DNA from: a virus
Length of the DNA stretch: 49,019 nt
Reading direction: 5' to 3' (one strand)
IMG/VR virus record: IMGVR_UViG_3300044624_000287
Span: 1 to 49,019 of that record
Part shown: positions 11,525-32,035 of the stretch, in pieces
Numbering within the stretch: position 1 is the first letter of the stretch
Layout of the letters: every line of letters begins with the position of its first letter
Made by a program: the position numbers and the translations under genes
The notes under the pieces: generated by a model
Seen by the model: only the letters and a program-made list of their open reading frames with translations
What the model was told of the DNA's origin: nothing
Databases searched by the model: none

Positions 11525-12002
11525 CTATTGTCACAGGTGTGGGTTGTTGATTTGGAAAGTTAATCGTGATACTGAACTTCGGTGCAGCATTCGTAGCTAC
11601 TTCCGCTTGCTTCTTATCAGGTTTGAGCCCAGCCACGTCTACCAAAGAATTGAAGACGCTCATCTTTTGCAAGATCGTACTGTCGTTTGATATAGCCTGC
11701 TTGAACATCTGACTCATCATCTCGTCGGCCATTAGACCTGCTTTGAGACGAAATGTTATTCCGTTCCTCGCAAATTCCGCACGCTGCGTTTGTACTGCGG
11801 TGATGAATGGGTCCCACTGTGATAAACGCTCCCACTTATCGCCTTCAAAACCAAACCTGGCTGCGATCACCACTGGGTCTTCTAATCCTGCAGCGCACTC
11901 CCAGACTAGCTGGGGTGGGATATCTAAAGTGACATGAGGTTCTTCTGACGCTGGAGCCAACGCAAATTCTGAATGATTTTTGTGAATCAGATCACCATTC
12001 AT
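11517..12002 (-). CDS. Terminase small subunit (probable)
   Basis: A 161-residue protein immediately upstream of the large terminase and overlapping it by 8 bases. The middle (residues about 38-60, ECAAGLEDPVVIAARFGFEG) looks like the helix-turn-helix that small terminases use to recognise the packaging site. The rest is helical and could form the oligomeric ring, with a beta-rich tail (KFSITINFPNQQPTPVTIDG). The assignment depends mainly on position and size. Its ATG overlaps the stop of the ribbon-helix-helix gene (ATGA). Confidence 0.75.
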   Translation of the reverse strand: MNGDLIHKNHSEFALAPASEEPHVTLDIPPQLVWECAAGLEDPVVIAARFGFEGDKWERLSQWDPFITAVQTQRAEFARNGITFRLKAGLMADEMMSQMFKQAISNDSTILQKMSVFNSLVDVAGLKPDKKQAEVATNAAPKFSITINFPNQQPTPVTIDG

Positions 12003-12124
12003 TTTTTGATGTACTCCATCAATGCCATTCTGATTATCTCAGCCAACTTAATACCCGTGCGTGCTGACTCGGCCCGTAGGGCTTCCAACAGGGGCTCGGG
12101 TAAATGGAAATTGTAACGCTTCAC
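11999..12124 (-). CDS. Mini ribbon-helix-helix (CopG/Arc-type) DNA-binding protein
   Basis: A 41-residue protein with a GTG start at 12124. The sequence KRYNFHLPEPLLEALRAESA is followed by TGIKLAEIIRMALMEYIKK. The pattern of a short beta strand, a helix, a turn (TGIKLAE) and a second helix is that of CopG/Arc repressors, which bind DNA as dimers. It is coupled to both neighbours: the GTG overlaps the upstream stop (GTGA) and its TGA overlaps the small-terminase ATG (ATGA). It could autoregulate the late promoter 180 bases upstream or help recognise the packaging site. Confidence 0.7.
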   Translation of the reverse strand: MKRYNFHLPEPLLEALRAESARTGIKLAEIIRMALMEYIKK

Positions 12125-12334: not shown

Positions 12335-12915
12335 GTGCAGTAATGGGTAAGAAGCTCGCCTGCCAATTCGTTGAACCCTAATTTGAAAACCAGAAAAAAT
12401 TAGATTCTTCGTTCCCATTGCGCTGGTTTAACAACTGCACGCTTTGATTGTAGAGTGGAAAAGGTGTGGCTAACGTGTGTATGTATAGAAAAATGGGACT
12501 TGTTGTATGAGCAATAGGTAAATATAGGGCCCCCGTCCCGATCCATTTGGTCCACCCCTCCCCCCTCACCCGCCTTGTCGGGTCAAAACCTATGGTGTAG
12601 GGCATCGTATCCCTCAACTCCACGCTCTTTAAAAAGCAATATCGGTTCAATGTGTCGCTGACTTCGCGGTTCATGCTCTCAGAGTATCGGGCTCAAGTAT
12701 GCGGACAAACACATCGCATCGGTATGGATGTTTGATCATTAAAAATTTAATAGCGTTTTCGCGGTTTGGGTGAAGTAACCGCGCGGTGAATCCGTCTCTT
12801 TAACCTAAACCGCAAGGCATGGTTTAAACACGCAAAGCAACCCGTGGGAGACGGTTTTATGGAGTGCATTACATGGTGTAGTGTATTCCTCGAAACTAAC
12901 TTATTGGAGAAATCT
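12335..12915. promoter_or_regulatory. Divergent intergenic control region
   Basis: No convincing gene lies here; the frames present have no ribosome-binding site and poor composition. The region separates the leftward late operon from the rightward early operon. It holds a pyrimidine-rich tract on the plus strand (about 12530-12570), an AT palindrome ATTAAA-AA-TTTAAT (12738-12751), a hairpin CGCGGTT/AACCGCG (12760-12783) and a hairpin TAAACC/GGTTTA (12806-12826). A weak rightward promoter candidate, TTGTTG-N17-TATAGG, lies near 12498-12526. An operator or replication function is possible. Confidence 0.55.
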
Positions 12916-13321: not shown

Positions 13322-13534
13322 ATGACTACACACATCTTGCCACGCGGTGTCCACATCGCTCCAATGCCTAGGCTCCGTGATGGTGAGGTTGGTCGCAAGG
13401 TTCAAGGCGGTTTACCGCCTGAGCCGTATCGTTCAGCCAACTGTCGCCTCACTGCCATGCACTCACGCAACCCAACGCGGTTGACCAAGTATCACAAATC
13501 CACACACGCAACCATAACTTATCGTGTGAAATGA
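13322..13534 (+). CDS. Small basic protein
   Basis: A 70-residue basic protein starting at the ATG two bases after the preceding stop (TAATATG), MTTHILPRGVHIAPMPRLRD. It is rich in Arg, His and Pro, with MHSRNPTRLTKYHKSTH near the end. No membrane segment or known motif is seen. A longer in-frame extension from 13220 would overlap the first gene by 100 bases and is unlikely. Directly after its stop comes the long inverted repeat of the AATATTCC cluster. Confidence 0.55.
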   Translation: MTTHILPRGVHIAPMPRLRDGEVGRKVQGGLPPEPYRSANCRLTAMHSRNPTRLTKYHKSTHATITYRVK

Positions 13535-13875
13535 ATATTCCGTGTGGTTGCCACGGAATATTGTCTGGAAAATTCATAAGTTGTTGATTTCATTGAGCAA
13601 TCTTAATTGAATTTTCAAATTTTCAAATATTCCATATAAATAATGCACACACACGCGAGCACGTGTTCATGTGTATCAATGTGTCTAATGATCTCATTAC
13701 ACATACATCTCATAAAACCTGTCTGACCCTCAGACTTTCACGGAATATTTGAATATTCTACCTGTATATCCATACAGCACCCGAAATACGTGTCAACCAC
13801 ACAGACTCGTAGGTAAGGAACCACTAACATGAATATTCCACGACACCTGCACATTGGAATATTGTCGGAATATTC
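13533..13875. repeat. AATATTCC iteron-like cluster (candidate origin or operator)
   Basis: Eight copies of AATATTCC or its complement GGAATATT occur in 343 bases: 13534-13541, 13555-13562, 13626-13633, 13742-13749, 13751-13758 (GAATATTC form), 13832-13839, 13856-13863 and 13867-13875. The first two are arms of an 11-bp perfect inverted repeat, AATATTCCGTG/CACGGAATATT with a 7-base loop (13534-13562). A second inverted repeat, TAATGA-tc-TCATTA with outer TGTG/CACA, lies at 13680-13703. An AT-rich stretch follows the first repeat (about 13563-13640). Iterons, palindrome and AT-rich DNA together resemble a replication origin or a multi-site operator. Confidence 0.75.
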
Positions 13876-13912
13876 ACCACCACTAGGGATACTTGACTAT
13901 CAGAAGTGGTAA
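13829..13912 (+). CDS. Possible 27-codon peptide inside the motif cluster
   Basis: An ATG at 13829 opens a 27-codon frame (MNIPRHLHIGILSEYSPPLG...) ending at TAA 13912. AAGGAA lies 9-14 bases before the ATG. Three of the AATATTCC-type motifs lie within it, so it may simply be regulatory DNA that happens to be open. Alternatively it could be a leader peptide. The evidence is only the ribosome-binding site and the frame. Confidence 0.25.
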   Translation: MNIPRHLHIGILSEYSPPLGILDYQKW

Positions 13913-16014: not shown

Positions 16015-17019
16015 ATGAAATACTCAGATATCAAACGATCTGCCCTAGCTAACTTTGCCAAGGGTAACCGACTTGTCCCCTACATCACTGGCAAACCTGG
16101 TGGCGGCAAATCTGCCCTCTGCCGTGACATCATCAAAGAACTTGGCATCTCACCCGAGCGCGTAACGGAGTTCAATCCATCATTGCGTGACCCAGTGGAC
16201 ATTATGGGTGTGCCTCGTACTGACAACGATGTAGCCAAGTGGATACCAATGCCTGAGTTCTATCGTATTCGTGACGATGGGACTGACCAACCATGTGCAT
16301 TGATTATCGAGGAGCTATCCGATGCACCCCAACCGATGCAGAACCCAATGTGTCGGGTCATCTTGGACAAGTGTGCTGGCGAGCTCAAGCTTCACCCCAA
16401 GCTACACATCATTGCATCAGGTAATCGTACAGCGGACAAGTCTGGTGCCAATCGCATGACTACCAAGCTATCCAATCGTATGCAAGAACTGCAGTATGAC
16501 GAGAACCTAGACGACTGGTGTGCATGGGCATTGGAGAACAACATCGCAGTTGAGCTCATACAGTTCATTCGCTTCAGACCCAACCTATTGTCTGACTTCG
16601 ACCCCAATCGCAACATCAATCCAACACCACGGACTTGGGAGTTTGCCAATGAGGTAGACACGAGCCTGCCCTCTGATCTGTACTTCAGCAACATTGCAGG
16701 CTGTGTGGGTGAGGGTGCCGCGGCTGAGTACACAGGCTTCAAGCGTATCTTTGAGAACCTGCCAAACATCGATGGCATCTTATTGAACCCAAGCAAATCG
16801 AATGTGCCAAGTGACCCTGCAGTTCTGTATGCGTTAACTGGTGCATTAGCACACAAAGTATCCAAGGATAACTTTGACCGAGTCGCTGAGTATGTTGACC
16901 GCATGCCTGCTGACTTCCAAGTGATGTGTATCTTCGATGCACAGAAACTCAAGCCCGAGATTCGCAACACCAAGGCATTCATGCAGTGGGCTGTGAAGAA
17001 CGCAAACGTTTTACTGTGA
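16015..17019 (+). CDS. MoxR-type AAA+ ATPase
   Basis: A 334-residue ATPase. Walker A is GKPGGGKS at residues 26-33, Walker B is ALIIEE at 95-100, and sensor 1 is IIASGNRT (N137). The stretch VTEFNPSLRDPVDIMGVPR before Walker B, and the specificity for a peptide-remodelling role, fit the MoxR/RavA branch. These ATPases work with von Willebrand A partners to remodel or mature protein complexes. The partner is encoded at 19119-20231, four genes downstream. The leader contains the hairpin array. The size is typical for the family. Confidence 0.85.
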   Translation: MKYSDIKRSALANFAKGNRLVPYITGKPGGGKSALCRDIIKELGISPERVTEFNPSLRDPVDIMGVPRTDNDVAKWIPMPEFYRIRDDGTDQPCALIIEELSDAPQPMQNPMCRVILDKCAGELKLHPKLHIIASGNRTADKSGANRMTTKLSNRMQELQYDENLDDWCAWALENNIAVELIQFIRFRPNLLSDFDPNRNINPTPRTWEFANEVDTSLPSDLYFSNIAGCVGEGAAAEYTGFKRIFENLPNIDGILLNPSKSNVPSDPAVLYALTGALAHKVSKDNFDRVAEYVDRMPADFQVMCIFDAQKLKPEIRNTKAFMQWAVKNANVLL

Positions 17020-19118: not shown

Positions 19119-20231
19119 ATGTCAAACAAAATTGATAAAGCAAAAGCGCAGATCGTTCTCGATCATCCATTCTGGGCAAGCATCTTACTCAAACGCCCAT
19201 TGGTTGAGACACGTGATATACCAACACTGGCAGTCGATGGTCGGGCTCGTATCTATTACAACCCTGACTTCATCGAGAAGCTACCTGTACCACAAGTGGT
19301 ATGGGGTCTATGCCACGAGGTCGGTCACGTTATCGGTCAGCATGCACTGCGTGTCGGTAGTCGCAATCGTAAGAAGTGGAATTATGCAGGTGATGCATGG
19401 ATTAACGACATGCTAGATGATGGCAATGTCGGTCAGCGTATCCCCAACTGTGTGGATATCAAAGGCTCCAAAGACGATACAGTCGAGAACATCTATGACT
19501 CATTGCCTGACAATGAAGACGGTGGTGATGGTCCTCCCAACGATGGCACTGGTGACGATGTGATCTATGGTGATGGTGGCAAGGAGATGACCCAAGACGA
19601 GATTCGTGAGATGGAGGGTCAGATCAAAGTCGAGATCGCTCAGGCAGCACAAGCCGCCAAGATGCGCGGTAAGTTATCCGCTGCTTTGCAGGATATGGTT
19701 GCAGGTATGCTCGAGTCCAAGACCCCATGGTATGAGATTCTCGAGAAGCACTGTGTGTCCCGTGTCAATCAAGGTCAGTCATGGCGTAGGCCTAACCGCA
19801 GGTTCGCTGATGTGTACTTGCCTAGCGTAGATAAGTTGCCACAGATGGGTGAACTTGTTGTGCAAGTCGATGTGTCTGGATCTATCTCTAAGGTTGAGCT
19901 TGATCACTACAACGGTCACCTATCACGCATCATCGAGCAATGCAGACCATCCAAGGTTCATGTCTTGTACACCGACACTGCTGTAGTTAAGCATGAAGAG
20001 TTTGATTGCGGCGAGGAAGTTGGGTTGACCTTCTACTCAGGCGGTGGTACTCACATGCCTGCAGGCTTTGACTACTGTGCAGAACATGGCATTGACCCTG
20101 AAGTGTTTGTGTGTCTGACTGATGGCTATACAGACTTCGCTGAAGCTCCTAGCTTCCCAGTGGTGTGGTGTATCAGCAGTGAGATTGAAGCACCCTATGG
20201 TGAAAATGTCCACTTCGAACTCGAGTCTTAA
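19119..20231 (+). CDS. vWA-like protein with metallopeptidase-type domain (DUF2201 type)
   Basis: A 370-residue two-domain protein. The N-terminal part has the zinc-peptidase-like HEVGH (H66, E67, H70) in VVWGLCHEVGHVIGQHALRV. A low-complexity acidic linker (DNEDGGDGPPNDGTGDD) follows. The C-terminal von Willebrand A-like domain carries the metal-binding DxSxS in VDVSGSIS (D251, S253, S255) and a late CLTDGYTD loop. This architecture pairs with MoxR ATPases in bacteria; the ATPase is at 16015-17019. A chaperone or protein-maturation function is inferred, target unknown. Confidence 0.85.
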   Translation: MSNKIDKAKAQIVLDHPFWASILLKRPLVETRDIPTLAVDGRARIYYNPDFIEKLPVPQVVWGLCHEVGHVIGQHALRVGSRNRKKWNYAGDAWINDMLDDGNVGQRIPNCVDIKGSKDDTVENIYDSLPDNEDGGDGPPNDGTGDDVIYGDGGKEMTQDEIREMEGQIKVEIAQAAQAAKMRGKLSAALQDMVAGMLESKTPWYEILEKHCVSRVNQGQSWRRPNRRFADVYLPSVDKLPQMGELVVQVDVSGSISKVELDHYNGHLSRIIEQCRPSKVHVLYTDTAVVKHEEFDCGEEVGLTFYSGGGTHMPAGFDYCAEHGIDPEVFVCLTDGYTDFAEAPSFPVVWCISSEIEAPYGENVHFELES

Positions 20232-22193: not shown

Positions 22194-22387
22194 AAAGTAG
22201 CGGACTGGATTGTTGTACCTATGATTGCACACAAGGGCGAGACTGTCCGGTCCGCCAACGTAAATTGGAAGAAGTAAATGAAAAGCAACCACAATATTAT
22301 TCGAGACTTATTGCAAGAGTATCCCGATGGCTTAAAGTCGAGCGACATAGCAAGGCTAACGGGGATAAACAATCGTTCAGTGAATAA
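22190..22387 (+). CDS. Small cysteine-rich protein
   Basis: A 65-residue protein, MKSSGLDCCTYDCTQGRDCP, with a CC-x3-C-x5-C cluster that could bind metal, then a basic helical tail (SRLIARVSRWLKVERHSK). The start is in an ATGA overlap. The 3' 110 bases overlap the following gene in a different frame, so the conserved part is probably the first 30 residues. Confidence 0.5.
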   Translation: MKSSGLDCCTYDCTQGRDCPVRQRKLEEVNEKQPQYYSRLIARVSRWLKVERHSKANGDKQSFSE

Positions 22388-22553
22388 GTCATTGGAGAGT
22401 GTGTTTGGTGTCTACATCGATAGATGGGAAAAGTCTACGTATCGAAATAACTTAGCCGCTATATGGGTCATCGTTGAGGTGCCCGAGAACTGCCCTAAAC
22501 CCAACAACACTGGAAGGAGGTCACGTGAGCGGATTCGTACAGAAGAGGATTGA
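22278..22553 (+). CDS. Small winged-helix-type DNA-binding protein
   Basis: A 91-residue protein, MKSNHNIIRDLLQEYPDGLK. The segment LKSSDIARLTGINNRSVNKS fits a helix-turn-helix, and the following YIDRWEKS could form a wing. GGAAGAAG precedes the ATG. A transcription-regulating or replication-accessory function is inferred. Its 5' part overlaps the Cys-rich gene and its 3' end overlaps the next zinc-finger gene. Confidence 0.65.
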   Translation: MKSNHNIIRDLLQEYPDGLKSSDIARLTGINNRSVNKSLESVFGVYIDRWEKSTYRNNLAAIWVIVEVPENCPKPNNTGRRSRERIRTEED

Positions 22554-25825: not shown

Positions 25826-27391
25826 ATGTTAGTTAGACAAGACAAGAGGGCGCTGATCCTCAAATTAAAACATCCAACGAGAGTAACAACACCGATACCA
25901 ACCGCAAAGTTGGTAACGCACAAAGGGCAGACATTAGTGGCTGTTCCTCACAGACCTGATGAAGTTAAGGTACTGCGAAACTTGGGCTTTAACCCGCCTG
26001 ACCCGATGACTTATTACTATAAGTGGCCCGGTCGTTTCAAACCTTTTGCTGCACAGATCGAGACTGCTAACTTCTTATCGATGAATGAACGTGCGTTCTG
26101 TTTGAACAGCATGGGCTTGGGTAAGACAGTTACATCGCTATGGGCCTTTGACTACATGCGTGACTCTAAACTGGTCACACGTGCATTGGTTATCTGTCCA
26201 CTGTCCACGATGGAGCGCACTTGGGCGGATGAGATATTCCGAACCTTTCCCCATTTGGATGCCACTGTTGTGTATGGCTCACGCGAGCGTCGCAAGAAAC
26301 TGTTAGCCCAACCCGCTGATATCTACATTATCAATACCGATGGTATTCGAACGATTCAAGACGAGTTAGCCGATAGACCCGACATCAATTTAATTATTGT
26401 TGACGAGATTGCGATGTTCCGAAACGCCAGTACAGAGCGTTGGAAAATCCTGAACAAGATATGCAACAAGCAGTCGCACAGACGTATATGGGCTTTGACT
26501 GGTGCACCCACACCACACGAACCTACAGACGCATGGGCACAATGCCGAATCGTATGTCCAACCAACCCCGATGTACCCAAGTACTTTGGTCAGTTCCGCG
26601 ACTCAGTCATGAAACAGATCACACAGTTCAAGTGGATACCACGGGTAGACGCAGTCGATACAGTTAAGAAGATCATGCAACCCGCAGTTCGGTTTGCCCT
26701 CGATGACTGTATTGATTTGCCCGAACAGACGTTCATCAACCGCGATGCCGAGATGACGGATGAACAAAAGGCGGCCTACAAGGGTATGCTTGAGAAGCTG
26801 ATTACTGAATACGATGGTGGTGAGGTCCTTGCTATCAATGAGGCAGTTAAAGCCAACAAGCTTGTTCAGATTGCTTGCGGAGTTGCCTATGGCAAAGACG
26901 GCGAACACATCTACATTCCAAACAAGCCACGCATCGATGTACTTAAAGAGTTAATCGAGGGTTCAGAAGGCAAAGTCATTGTGTTCGTTCCGCTGACTGG
27001 AGTGCTAGAACAACTGGTGCAAGAGCTGTCAAGTGAATGGTCAGTGGCGGCAGTCCATGGTGGCACAAGCAAGGCCGAGCGCGATCAGATTTTTGGTGAA
27101 TTCCAAAACGGCACAGACCTTAGGGTACTGGTGGCAAACCCTGCGACCATGTCTCATGGCCTGACATTAACAGCGGCAACCAACATCGTTTGGTTTGCTC
27201 CTATCCACAGCAACGATATCTACGAACAGGCTTGTGCACGAGTGCGAAGACCTGGGCAGACTAGAACGACAGTGATTGCTCACATTGCTTGTTCAGATAT
27301 TGAAAGACGCATTTACACCCGCTTACGCACCAAGCAGAAACTGCAAGGTGCACTACTTGAAATAATGAAAGGAATTGAATCAGATGAGTGA
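25826..27391 (+). CDS. SNF2-family DEAD/H helicase
   Basis: A 521-residue superfamily 2 ATPase. It has an upstream Gln motif (PFAAQIETANF, Q77), Walker A MGLGKT (96-101), motif II as DEIA (193-196), motif III LTGAPTP, motif V SHGLTLTAAT and motif VI ARVRRPGQT. Motif order and the second RecA domain fit the SNF2-like helicases often found in phage replication cassettes. DEIA instead of DEAH or DEAQ is mildly unusual. It probably remodels or anneals DNA with the adjacent nucleases. ATG directly follows the previous stop. Confidence 0.92.
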   Translation: MLVRQDKRALILKLKHPTRVTTPIPTAKLVTHKGQTLVAVPHRPDEVKVLRNLGFNPPDPMTYYYKWPGRFKPFAAQIETANFLSMNERAFCLNSMGLGKTVTSLWAFDYMRDSKLVTRALVICPLSTMERTWADEIFRTFPHLDATVVYGSRERRKKLLAQPADIYIINTDGIRTIQDELADRPDINLIIVDEIAMFRNASTERWKILNKICNKQSHRRIWALTGAPTPHEPTDAWAQCRIVCPTNPDVPKYFGQFRDSVMKQITQFKWIPRVDAVDTVKKIMQPAVRFALDDCIDLPEQTFINRDAEMTDEQKAAYKGMLEKLITEYDGGEVLAINEAVKANKLVQIACGVAYGKDGEHIYIPNKPRIDVLKELIEGSEGKVIVFVPLTGVLEQLVQELSSEWSVAAVHGGTSKAERDQIFGEFQNGTDLRVLVANPATMSHGLTLTAATNIVWFAPIHSNDIYEQACARVRRPGQTRTTVIAHIACSDIERRIYTRLRTKQKLQGALLEIMKGIESDE

Positions 27392-29068: not shown

Positions 29069-32035
29069 ATGAACACGCTCAAGTTCCTGCAAACAATCCT
29101 TCCTGAGGAGGGGTTTAAGTTCGTAGGGTTGGGACGTGTTGGACGCGATGGCATTGCACACAAAGCCTATGAGTCACTTGAACTCATGGCGCAAGCTATT
29201 GAATCTTATGATGCACAAAGCAACCTGATTGTCTACCATGCGTGCTGTTCGTATAAGGCACCAAGCTACGAAGCTGAGGTAAATGGGGAGATCAAAACCA
29301 AATACCGAGGCGCACAGAACTGGGACAAGGCCAAATCATTTTGGATTGATATCGACTGCGGTGAAGACAAAGCCGCTGAAGGTAAGGGCTATCTGAATAA
29401 AACAGAAGCCGCTAAAGCAATCCTTGGATTCTGCCAAACACACCAATTCACTAAACCCATGCTTGTTGACTCAGGCGGTGGACTACATTGCTATTGGCCT
29501 TTGACTAAACCCATCGGCCCTAACAGTTGGCGATCTATTGCCAATGAATTCAAAGCCGCGCTTAATGCCGCTGGACTGCTGGTTGACCCAACCCGCACTG
29601 CTGACTTGTCTTCTATCCTGCGACCTGCAGGCACTCATAATCGTAAAGCCGGACGTGAAGTCCGTGAAGTCAAGGTTAAGAACGAACCTACATTCGTTGA
29701 ACCACAAGAATTCGCAGCCGCAGTCTCACGCGCCGTAAAAACGCTTCAAGCTCATGTGCCAAGTTATTCAACAGCGCCTGGTTTAAACGATGACTTAATC
29801 GTAGCTTACGACGGGCCCACTTACGAGTCTTCAGCACGCATCATGGCAGACCACTGCCAACAAGTGATGTTCATGCGTGACACCAAGGGTGATGTTGACT
29901 ACGATACATGGCGTGGTGTGATTGGCCTTATTAAGCACTGCGCTGAAGATATCGACCTAGCCTACGAGTGGAGTGCAAACCGTGCTGACACTGGGCATTC
30001 CAACACTGATGTGGAGACACGTTATGAGTCATGGGATTCCGGTCCAACGACTTGTGCGTTTTTTGAGAAAAGCAATTCAGCCGGATGCGTTGGTTGTTCC
30101 CACAAAGGGAAGATCAAGACCCCTATGGTATTAGGTAGGGTTATCCCTGAGCCTGCTGAGCAAGTGCTTGAGGTTGTGGACGAGGAAGTAGTTGTTGAGA
30201 CTGTTGTTCCCGCCCTGCCTGAAAGCTATGAGTATCAGAACAACCGGATGATTCGATTCATCAAAGACAAGGATGGTGTAAACCAACCCTTTACATTCTG
30301 CTACCAACTGTTCTACCCTATACAGCGCATCAAGAAAGCTGATGGGGCGTTTGCATTCACGATTCGGATGCACCTGCCGGACAAGCGTATCAGGGAATTT
30401 GAAGTTGATACAGCCGCTATCGCTTCGTCAGCCGATCTTCTCAAAGCCATGTCCAAGTATGAATTAATGCCTTCTAATAATAAGGACGCAACTATGCACC
30501 TGACTGCGTACATTCGTGATTCCATTACAAAGCTCATGACTGAGCAGAGGGAAGTTGACACACTGACTTCGTTTGGTTGGCGCGAGAACATGTCAGGGTT
30601 TCTACTAGGTGACCGCCTGTACCATACTGATGGCTCTATTCGTAGGGTCTACGTTGGTGGAGCAGCCGCCACGTACAAGAACACATATCCTGTCCCACGT
30701 GGAACCATTGAGGGTTACGCTGAAGCTGTTAACTTTATATACAACCGCGAGAGCAGTGAAGCCGCCCAGTATGTTTTCTGCAATGTGTACGGCTCTATCC
30801 TGACTCCGTTTGGTGAGGACAGCTACAACGGTGCGTTGGTTGCAGTTAACTCTGGCGCATCCGGTAAAGGTAAAACCTCAGTGTGGCGTGCAGCACTGTA
30901 CGGTCTCGCTGATGCCAATAAGTTGATCTACGCTGGTAAAGATGGTGCAACTCGCAATGCTCGTTGGGCTATCGTAGGCGCTCACCAAAACATGCCAGTT
31001 GTCTTTGACGAGATGACCGACATGGACGCAGCTGAAGTAAGTAGTTTTGCGTACACCGTATCCCAAGGTACTGACCGAGCCCGACTCACATCCAGTGGCG
31101 GTAAGGTTGGATTCGCGGAACAACACACTTGGAAAGCTGTCGTGGGTATCACAGCCAACGAGGACATGCATGCCAAACTAGCTTCGCACAATGCCAACAC
31201 TCAGGCAGAAGCGGTGCGTATGATTGCCATCAACTTCTCCAAGTACAACGTACCCATCTTCGAGAACGCCATTGAAGTATCTGATGCGATTGACAAGATG
31301 CGGGACAACATGGGTTGTGCAGGCGATGCGTTTATCAAGTATGTGGTTACACACCAAGATGCCGTAGCCAAACTGTGGGCTGAGACTGAAGCGAAGTTGA
31401 GTGTCATTCTGCCCCAGAGTGAGTACAGGTTCTTCCGAAGTCACGCTACTGCAACTCTAACTGCAGCCAGGATACTGCTTGACTTACAGGTTATCTCATT
31501 TGACTATAACAAACTTGTTGAGTTTACGACCATGCTGATGGGCGATCTGACTGAGGCAATCGTGGCAGGCAACATGACTTCCCCTGCGGATGCCTTGAAC
31601 CGTATGATTCGCGACTTATCCAACCGCATCATAGTGACAACTGAGTACCGTGACTTGCGTACAGATAGCCGTGGACCTGAAGATTCAATCTCTAGAATCA
31701 TGGGAACCCCCGCGGGTCGACGCATCATTGGTAATCAGACTACCAAAGGTAAGGACAAGTACATCGGTAAGCTGTTCCTTGCTAAGAAGGAATTTGGTGA
31801 CTGGTGTTCTAAAAACCGTATGGAGCCTAAGGAAATGATTAAGTACGCCACCGATAACGGATGGATTATTCCTTGGCAGGAGAAGTTCAATATGGGAAGG
31901 GGTACAGCCTACTCAACCGGTAGCTGCACATGCTTTGCGTTTGACTTTGCTGCCATGGAGGGTACTGTAGAGAACACTAGTGGCCCTGTGACACTTGTGC
32001 AAACTGAGGAAAGTGCAGTATCATCTGCGCACTAA
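29069..32035 (+). CDS. Primase-helicase fusion (AEP-type primase + P-loop helicase)
   Basis: A 988-residue replication protein. The N-terminal domain has the archaeo-eukaryotic primase/polymerase metal motif in FWIDIDCGED (D94, D96) and the downstream His in GGGLHCYWPL (H140). A zinc-like CVGCSHKGK is near residue 345. The C-terminal half is a DUF927-type helicase with Walker A SGASGKGKT (K602) and Walker B VVFDEMTD (D647, E648). It probably primes and unwinds the replication fork. No separate primase or DnaB-type helicase is present in the window. It is the last early gene before the terminator. Confidence 0.9.
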   Translation: MNTLKFLQTILPEEGFKFVGLGRVGRDGIAHKAYESLELMAQAIESYDAQSNLIVYHACCSYKAPSYEAEVNGEIKTKYRGAQNWDKAKSFWIDIDCGEDKAAEGKGYLNKTEAAKAILGFCQTHQFTKPMLVDSGGGLHCYWPLTKPIGPNSWRSIANEFKAALNAAGLLVDPTRTADLSSILRPAGTHNRKAGREVREVKVKNEPTFVEPQEFAAAVSRAVKTLQAHVPSYSTAPGLNDDLIVAYDGPTYESSARIMADHCQQVMFMRDTKGDVDYDTWRGVIGLIKHCAEDIDLAYEWSANRADTGHSNTDVETRYESWDSGPTTCAFFEKSNSAGCVGCSHKGKIKTPMVLGRVIPEPAEQVLEVVDEEVVVETVVPALPESYEYQNNRMIRFIKDKDGVNQPFTFCYQLFYPIQRIKKADGAFAFTIRMHLPDKRIREFEVDTAAIASSADLLKAMSKYELMPSNNKDATMHLTAYIRDSITKLMTEQREVDTLTSFGWRENMSGFLLGDRLYHTDGSIRRVYVGGAAATYKNTYPVPRGTIEGYAEAVNFIYNRESSEAAQYVFCNVYGSILTPFGEDSYNGALVAVNSGASGKGKTSVWRAALYGLADANKLIYAGKDGATRNARWAIVGAHQNMPVVFDEMTDMDAAEVSSFAYTVSQGTDRARLTSSGGKVGFAEQHTWKAVVGITANEDMHAKLASHNANTQAEAVRMIAINFSKYNVPIFENAIEVSDAIDKMRDNMGCAGDAFIKYVVTHQDAVAKLWAETEAKLSVILPQSEYRFFRSHATATLTAARILLDLQVISFDYNKLVEFTTMLMGDLTEAIVAGNMTSPADALNRMIRDLSNRIIVTTEYRDLRTDSRGPEDSISRIMGTPAGRRIIGNQTTKGKDKYIGKLFLAKKEFGDWCSKNRMEPKEMIKYATDNGWIIPWQEKFNMGRGTAYSTGSCTCFAFDFAAMEGTVENTSGPVTLVQTEESAVSSAH

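Follow-up and report, generated by a model that had tools for sequence, protein, structure and literature searches.

The window analyzed here is a whole 49,019-nucleotide stretch of DNA, positions 1 to 49,019 of IMG/VR virus record IMGVR_UViG_3300044624_000287. At 13532-13876 it carries a cluster of short repeated boxes, listed with associated features in Table 1. The exact box, AATATTCC, occurs seven times, always within 13534-13874 and nowhere else in the 49-kb window; dinucleotide shuffling gives 1.17 copies per whole window by chance, and none of 100 shuffles reached seven or more. The initial annotation had counted eight copies, of which seven are exact and the eighth, GAATATTC(T) at 13751-13758, matches the box at only 7 of 8 positions. 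It had missed the rest of the order, which includes degenerate copies (GGAAAATT at 13567-13574 and AATTTTCA at 13610 and 13618). With these added, boxes at 13610, 13618, and 13626 form a left tandem with an exact 8-bp period, boxes at 13742 and 13750 form a right tandem, and the two arrays point toward each other with 108 bp between them. Each array is flanked by three single boxes, one rightward and two leftward. Among the other features described earlier, the 11-bp perfect inverted repeat (13534-13544/13552-13562) is present, the nearly contiguous pair at 13742-13758 proves to be a tandem in the strict sense, its period being 8 bp, and the second inverted repeat, at 13680-13703, exists but is imperfect, with a two-base bulge. 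The gap had also been called noncoding, which does not quite hold, since a 70-amino-acid (aa) open reading frame (ORF) at 13322-13534, kept in near relatives, reaches into the first box with its stop codon.

Table 1. Features of the box cluster and of the proteins considered as its readers (window coordinates)
Feature	Position	Strand	Remarks
RHH protein overlapping putative terS	11999-12124	-	Judged unlikely box reader
Left outer iteron box AATATTCC	13534-13541	+	Overlaps stop codon of ORF 13322-13534
Left outer iteron box	13555-13562	-	11-bp inverted repeat with 13534-13544
Degenerate iteron box GGAAAATT	13567-13574	-	From sequence; exact box in relatives L010 and L014
Perfect IHF consensus AATCAACAACTTA	13577-13589	-	
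Least stable 60-bp segment of window	13585-13644	.	GC 0.18; candidate unwinding element
Left tandem array, three boxes (AATTTTCA, AATTTTCA, AATATTCC)	13610-13633	+	8-bp period
Spacer between facing arrays, 108 bp	13634-13741	.	Dyads 13647-13674, 13679-13704, 13721-13735
TATAAAT, -10-like/AT-rich element directly after left array	13635-13641	+	Kept in relatives
Conserved block AAAACCTGTCTGACCCT ahead of right array	13714-13730	+	Most of box classes A, T, and G
Right tandem array, two boxes (GGAATATT TGAATATT)	13742-13757	-	8-bp period
Right outer iteron box	13832-13839	+	
Two right outer iteron boxes	13856-13863 and 13867-13874	-	
Proposed initiator, 988 aa: AEP primase (1-330), DUF927/AAA+ helicase (about 409-804), predicted winged helix (about 901-959)	29069-32035	+	

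When all 60-bp segments of the window were ranked by stability, the segment at 13585-13644 came first of 48,960. In the window this AT-rich weak point coincides in part with the left array; in Pseudomonas phage KPP25 it is found between the arrays. The spacer folds more strongly than shuffled sequence (z score of -3.1). A hairpin between the arrays is significant in several lineages but missing from others, and it was dropped as a conserved feature for that reason. The TATAAAT element inside the cluster may have a regulatory role, alone or beside an origin. No DnaA box (TTATNCACA) was found in the window. GC skew in the window tracks gene direction only, so it is uninformative about an origin and was rejected as evidence for one. 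On the minus strand at 12337-12442, just upstream of the leftward RHH/terminase operon, there is a match to the Rhizobiales small RNA family Atu_At1 (Rfam RF02496; 69.3 bits, cut-off of 60), and relative L007 has one as well (79 bits). Judged by this sequence match, it may be a leader RNA for the late operon and may say something about the host. Farther along, the gene at 19119-20231 has the PHROG label HNH endonuclease; its sequence and the annotation of its syntenic counterpart in RHph_TM3_14A point instead to a metallopeptidase/VWA-like partner of a MoxR-type ATPase (window 19119-20231 and 16015-17019).

Searches with the window proteins gathered more than 100 related contigs; comparing the DNA of the window region with annotated phage records gave no match. 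Related contigs that cover the region generally have a cluster at the same gap, and relatives of the same gene order, dozens of contigs in all, keep it at the syntenic position; the loss of the cluster in relatives, which the initial annotation had named as refuting its reading, was thus looked for and did not appear. When loci were scanned with no box assumed in advance, 54 of them showed facing tandem arrays, compared with 0 of 60 shuffled loci. The two-array model fits 31 of 41 clusters, with a median inner spacing of 115 bp (interquartile range, 109 to 118), near eleven helical turns. Of 44 clusters, 31 contain a perfect IHF consensus, where 1.34 sites would be expected. For 15 of the 17 loci tested, KPP25 included, the 60-bp segment of lowest stability in the locus falls inside the cluster. 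More distant phages have tidier arrays, such as three copies of AATATTCC facing two of GGAATATT. The box is AATTTTCC in some lineages, GAATTTG in others, and ATTATCC farther out. The farthest relatives, with TerL identity below 50%, carry ACAATCTA/AATAATCTA-type boxes, with a 9-bp period in several, and these clusters hold the same position, about 2 kb upstream of terL. From lineage to lineage, the box sequence changes while the spacing and the IHF sites persist.

Some clusters contain or adjoin other repeated elements. In the distant relatives L237 (2100-2560) and L236 (900-1310), a second repeat, AACTTTAC/GTAAAGTT, is interspersed with AATCTA boxes in the same cluster. An element of the form GGCGGG..CATGGACAC.GAGTCCATG..GCTTGGGCTTGGCGAACCCTTAA adjoins the cluster in L003, L005, L007, L015, L045, and L028 and is absent from the window; it resembles a structured RNA, and no Rfam family matched it. 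No repeat clusters were found in the parts of Rollin that were scanned.

The same grammar was found in a phage isolate. In Pseudomonas phage KPP25, TGTTACGA arrays flank a strongly AT-rich spacer at a distance of 109 bp from each other. This facing-array cluster, at 26390-26830 of NC_024123, is apparently unannotated. The KPP25 TerL has no match to the window TerL, yet the cluster grammar is present; the KPP25 primase-like protein is a DUF5906 rather than a DUF927 protein; and no KPP25 protein matched RHH_1 at the family cut-off, with the grammar kept all the same.

From the sequence comparisons, we consider it probable that the cluster is a phage replication origin, consisting of two facing arrays of 8-bp iterons about 110 bp apart. 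Earlier it had been described as either an iteron origin or the operator of a cooperative repressor. The former is now the better supported, and an operator for the RHH protein is disfavored by the lack of coupling between that protein and the box. The cluster follows the replication module, in that it persists without the RHH protein and, in KPP25, with an unmatched TerL.

Modeling and profile comparisons point to the 988-aa primase-helicase as the likely reader of the boxes. The remark that no initiator of a known family lies beside the cluster was literally true, but 15 kb downstream the same early block encodes a protein of initiator type, which was detected in 16 of 17 genomes. It contains a DUF927 domain, and a profile of its helicase half, searched against PDB sequences, matched only the SCCmec Cch (5dgk; 9.5e-22) and SaPIbov1 Rep (8tch; 1.6e-16) proteins, a match confined to the AAA+ part. 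For the N-terminal model the matches are AEP primases (1.7e-7), and this part has invariant DxD and SGxGxH motifs. The C-terminal model (mean pLDDT of 80) ends in a beta-alpha-alpha-beta-beta winged helix; its top Foldseek match is again SaPIbov1 Rep (8tch; E value of 3e-4), a likeness in structure only and of low TM-score (0.35). Between class A lineages and class G, divergence of the protein is even except in residues 832-967 and a linker, and it is in this C-terminal segment that phages with the most different boxes have diverged furthest. When six lineages were compared over the segment, class G alone clearly stood out. Codivergence with the boxes was clear with four lineages and shrank with five, the fifth being one more same-box lineage; one class A lineage is almost as far from its own class as from class G. 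Other proteins, including 20605 and 28814, show a between-class excess similar to that of the primase C terminus. Because the excess shrinks with an added lineage and other proteins behave similarly, we regard the sequence codivergence as suggestive of box reading by this domain.

A mechanism for initiation can be proposed on this basis. The primase-helicase would bind the boxes via its C-terminal winged helix, and one hexamer would assemble on each array. IHF would bend the DNA between the outer boxes and the array, and the adjacent AT-rich segment would melt. The two hexamers would then be loaded in opposite directions and would prime with their own primase domain, so that bidirectional synthesis by the family A polymerase of the phage could start, its direction and timing being part of the proposal. 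The scheme is proposed by analogy with the SaPI Rep helicases, which recognize their iteron origin with the C-terminal domain and appear to bind as two hexamers (PMC7581432).

The cluster might instead be an operator, with the RHH protein at 11999-12124 binding the tandem boxes and shutting the rightward early promoter (TATAAAT, 13635-13641) late in infection, assisted by IHF-mediated looping between the arrays. RHH repressors of the MetJ/Arc type bind tandem 8-bp boxes, and the protein is a true RHH_1/RHH_3 member, 1.4 kb from the cluster, linked to the terminase and kept beside terS. The contact strand is not the same in many class A (RYNF[H/Y]L) and class G (RYNFFL) phages, and an 8-bp period prevails among lineages with RHH, several lineages without it having a 9-bp period. 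This protein, one of those named in the initial annotation, was favored at first on account of the 8-bp period and of the H/Y-to-F substitution in its contact strand. Against it, the strand RHNFFLP occurs with four boxes (AATATTCC, AATTTTCC, GAATTTG, and ATTATCC), and the ATTATCC box occurs with two strands (RHNFFLP and RWNLYLP). In twelve distant genomes, no RHH_1 protein was found at the family cut-off, the only two subthreshold matches lying inside large proteins, yet most of these genomes retain repeat clusters, as does KPP25. No boxes were found ahead of the RHH protein's own operon. Because the contact strand is uncoupled from the box and the cluster survives without the protein, we rejected RHH as the box reader and think an operator of this kind improbable. 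The two other binders proposed earlier fared no better. The 134-aa protein P134 (12916-13320) gives way to unrelated genes in phages that still have the cluster, and it was rejected as the reader on its absence from several of these, one with AATATTC boxes; the protein at 22278-22553 was undetected in distant relatives that have the cluster.

Less probable still is a packaging site (cos or pac), at which TerS or the RHH protein would bind the boxes together with IHF and a conserved GTCTGACCCT block would be cut. In phage lambda, gpNu1 and IHF bind cosB, which the IHF sites and repeats recall, and in most relatives terL follows about 2 kb downstream of the cluster. Contig ends also concentrate around the cluster: of 12 circular assemblies, 6 or more are cut no farther than about 0.8 kb from it. 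These ends fall on either side of the cluster instead of at a single base, and the circular contigs carry a 127-nucleotide assembler overlap. The putative TerS differs between box classes no more than it does inside a class, none of the distant clusters that were read showed the GTCTGACCCT block, and KPP25 has the grammar with a TerL unmatched to that of the window. Packaging is disfavored because no fixed end is apparent in circular assemblies, TerS is not linked to box class, and the KPP25 TerL is unmatched; with ends scattered and assemblies circular, it was rejected. The enrichment of ends is real, involving G004, G005, G006, G022, G023, G028, and others, with a genome of about 55 kb, and nearby hypervariable genes (through assembly branching) or packaging may be its cause. 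Unlikely, though less so than an operator, is an origin read by another phage or host protein, such as an unrecognized small early protein, to which the primase-helicase would be recruited secondarily. The suggestive character of the C-terminal codivergence and the like divergence of 20605 and 28814 between classes would allow this, but 20605 has no detected DNA-binding domain and 28814 has no Pfam match, and homology to SaPI Rep supplies a direct precedent for a helicase C terminus that reads iterons (PMC7581432).

An origin read by the primase-helicase remains our preferred reading, and it invites a broader one that we offer only tentatively. The two-armed iteron origin might be a trait shared across a wide group of tailed phages, with two or more different self-loading initiator helicases as its readers (DUF927 and perhaps, in KPP25, DUF5906). 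Together with the initiator C-terminal domain, its box would have been rewritten many times at constant geometry, perhaps as an escape from satellites or competing relatives that would use the same origin. If this is true, a PICI-type replicon with an initiator like SaPIbov1 Rep also lives in that wide group of tailed phages, which bears on whether the islands took their replicon from phages or the reverse. Fixed geometry with changing boxes across lineages is a natural experiment in joint change of initiator and origin specificity, and KPP25, a cultured Pseudomonas phage with the same grammar, makes the origin reading testable.

Several known systems share parts of this arrangement. The iteron plasmid origins of R6K and pSC101 combine direct repeats, an IHF site, and an AT-rich element. 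The same three components occur here, but with facing arrays instead of one array and with no DnaA box in the window, and no plasmid RepA-type initiator was reported among the early proteins scanned against Pfam. In lambda, cosB combines short repeated R sites with an IHF site close to the terminase genes; the likeness lies in repeats and IHF near terminase, whereas here the arrays face each other with an 8-bp period, no fixed genome ends were seen, and the cluster persists with a different terminase in KPP25. The alpha protein of phage P4 is a fused primase, helicase, and origin-binding protein that reads short iterons, with P4 using two separate cis sites (ori and crr); the 988-aa protein resembles it in its predicted fused domain plan.

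To our knowledge, the two-armed iteron layout has so far been reported only for small genetic islands that parasitize phages, and among the open-access titles and abstracts returned by searches on DUF927 phages and on iteron sets, a scope outside which most subscription papers fall, none describes such an origin in free phages. PICI/SaPI-type origins are defined by two iteron sets flanking a spacer (PMC6092414), and two sets of short iterons likewise flank a spacer in this cluster. Further likenesses are the primase encoded with or fused to the initiator and, from sequence and modeling, a DUF927/AAA+ helicase of self-loading type with a predicted C-terminal winged helix, as in SaPIbov1 Rep. 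Unlike those origins, the cluster has IHF consensus sites and outer single boxes, and its box varies widely by lineage. The island type has an AT-rich melting region between its two sets; the weak point here overlaps the left array in the window and in KPP25 lies between the arrays. The islands are satellites, and this cluster occurs in apparently full-size phages. Their origin is found directly 3' to rep, but here it lies at 13.5 to 13.9 kb, about 15 kb upstream of the gene at 29.1 to 32.0 kb, and because of this position we do not count the cluster as a member of the PICI/SaPI origins. In layout and in type of initiator, as far as sequence can indicate, it appears to work like one.
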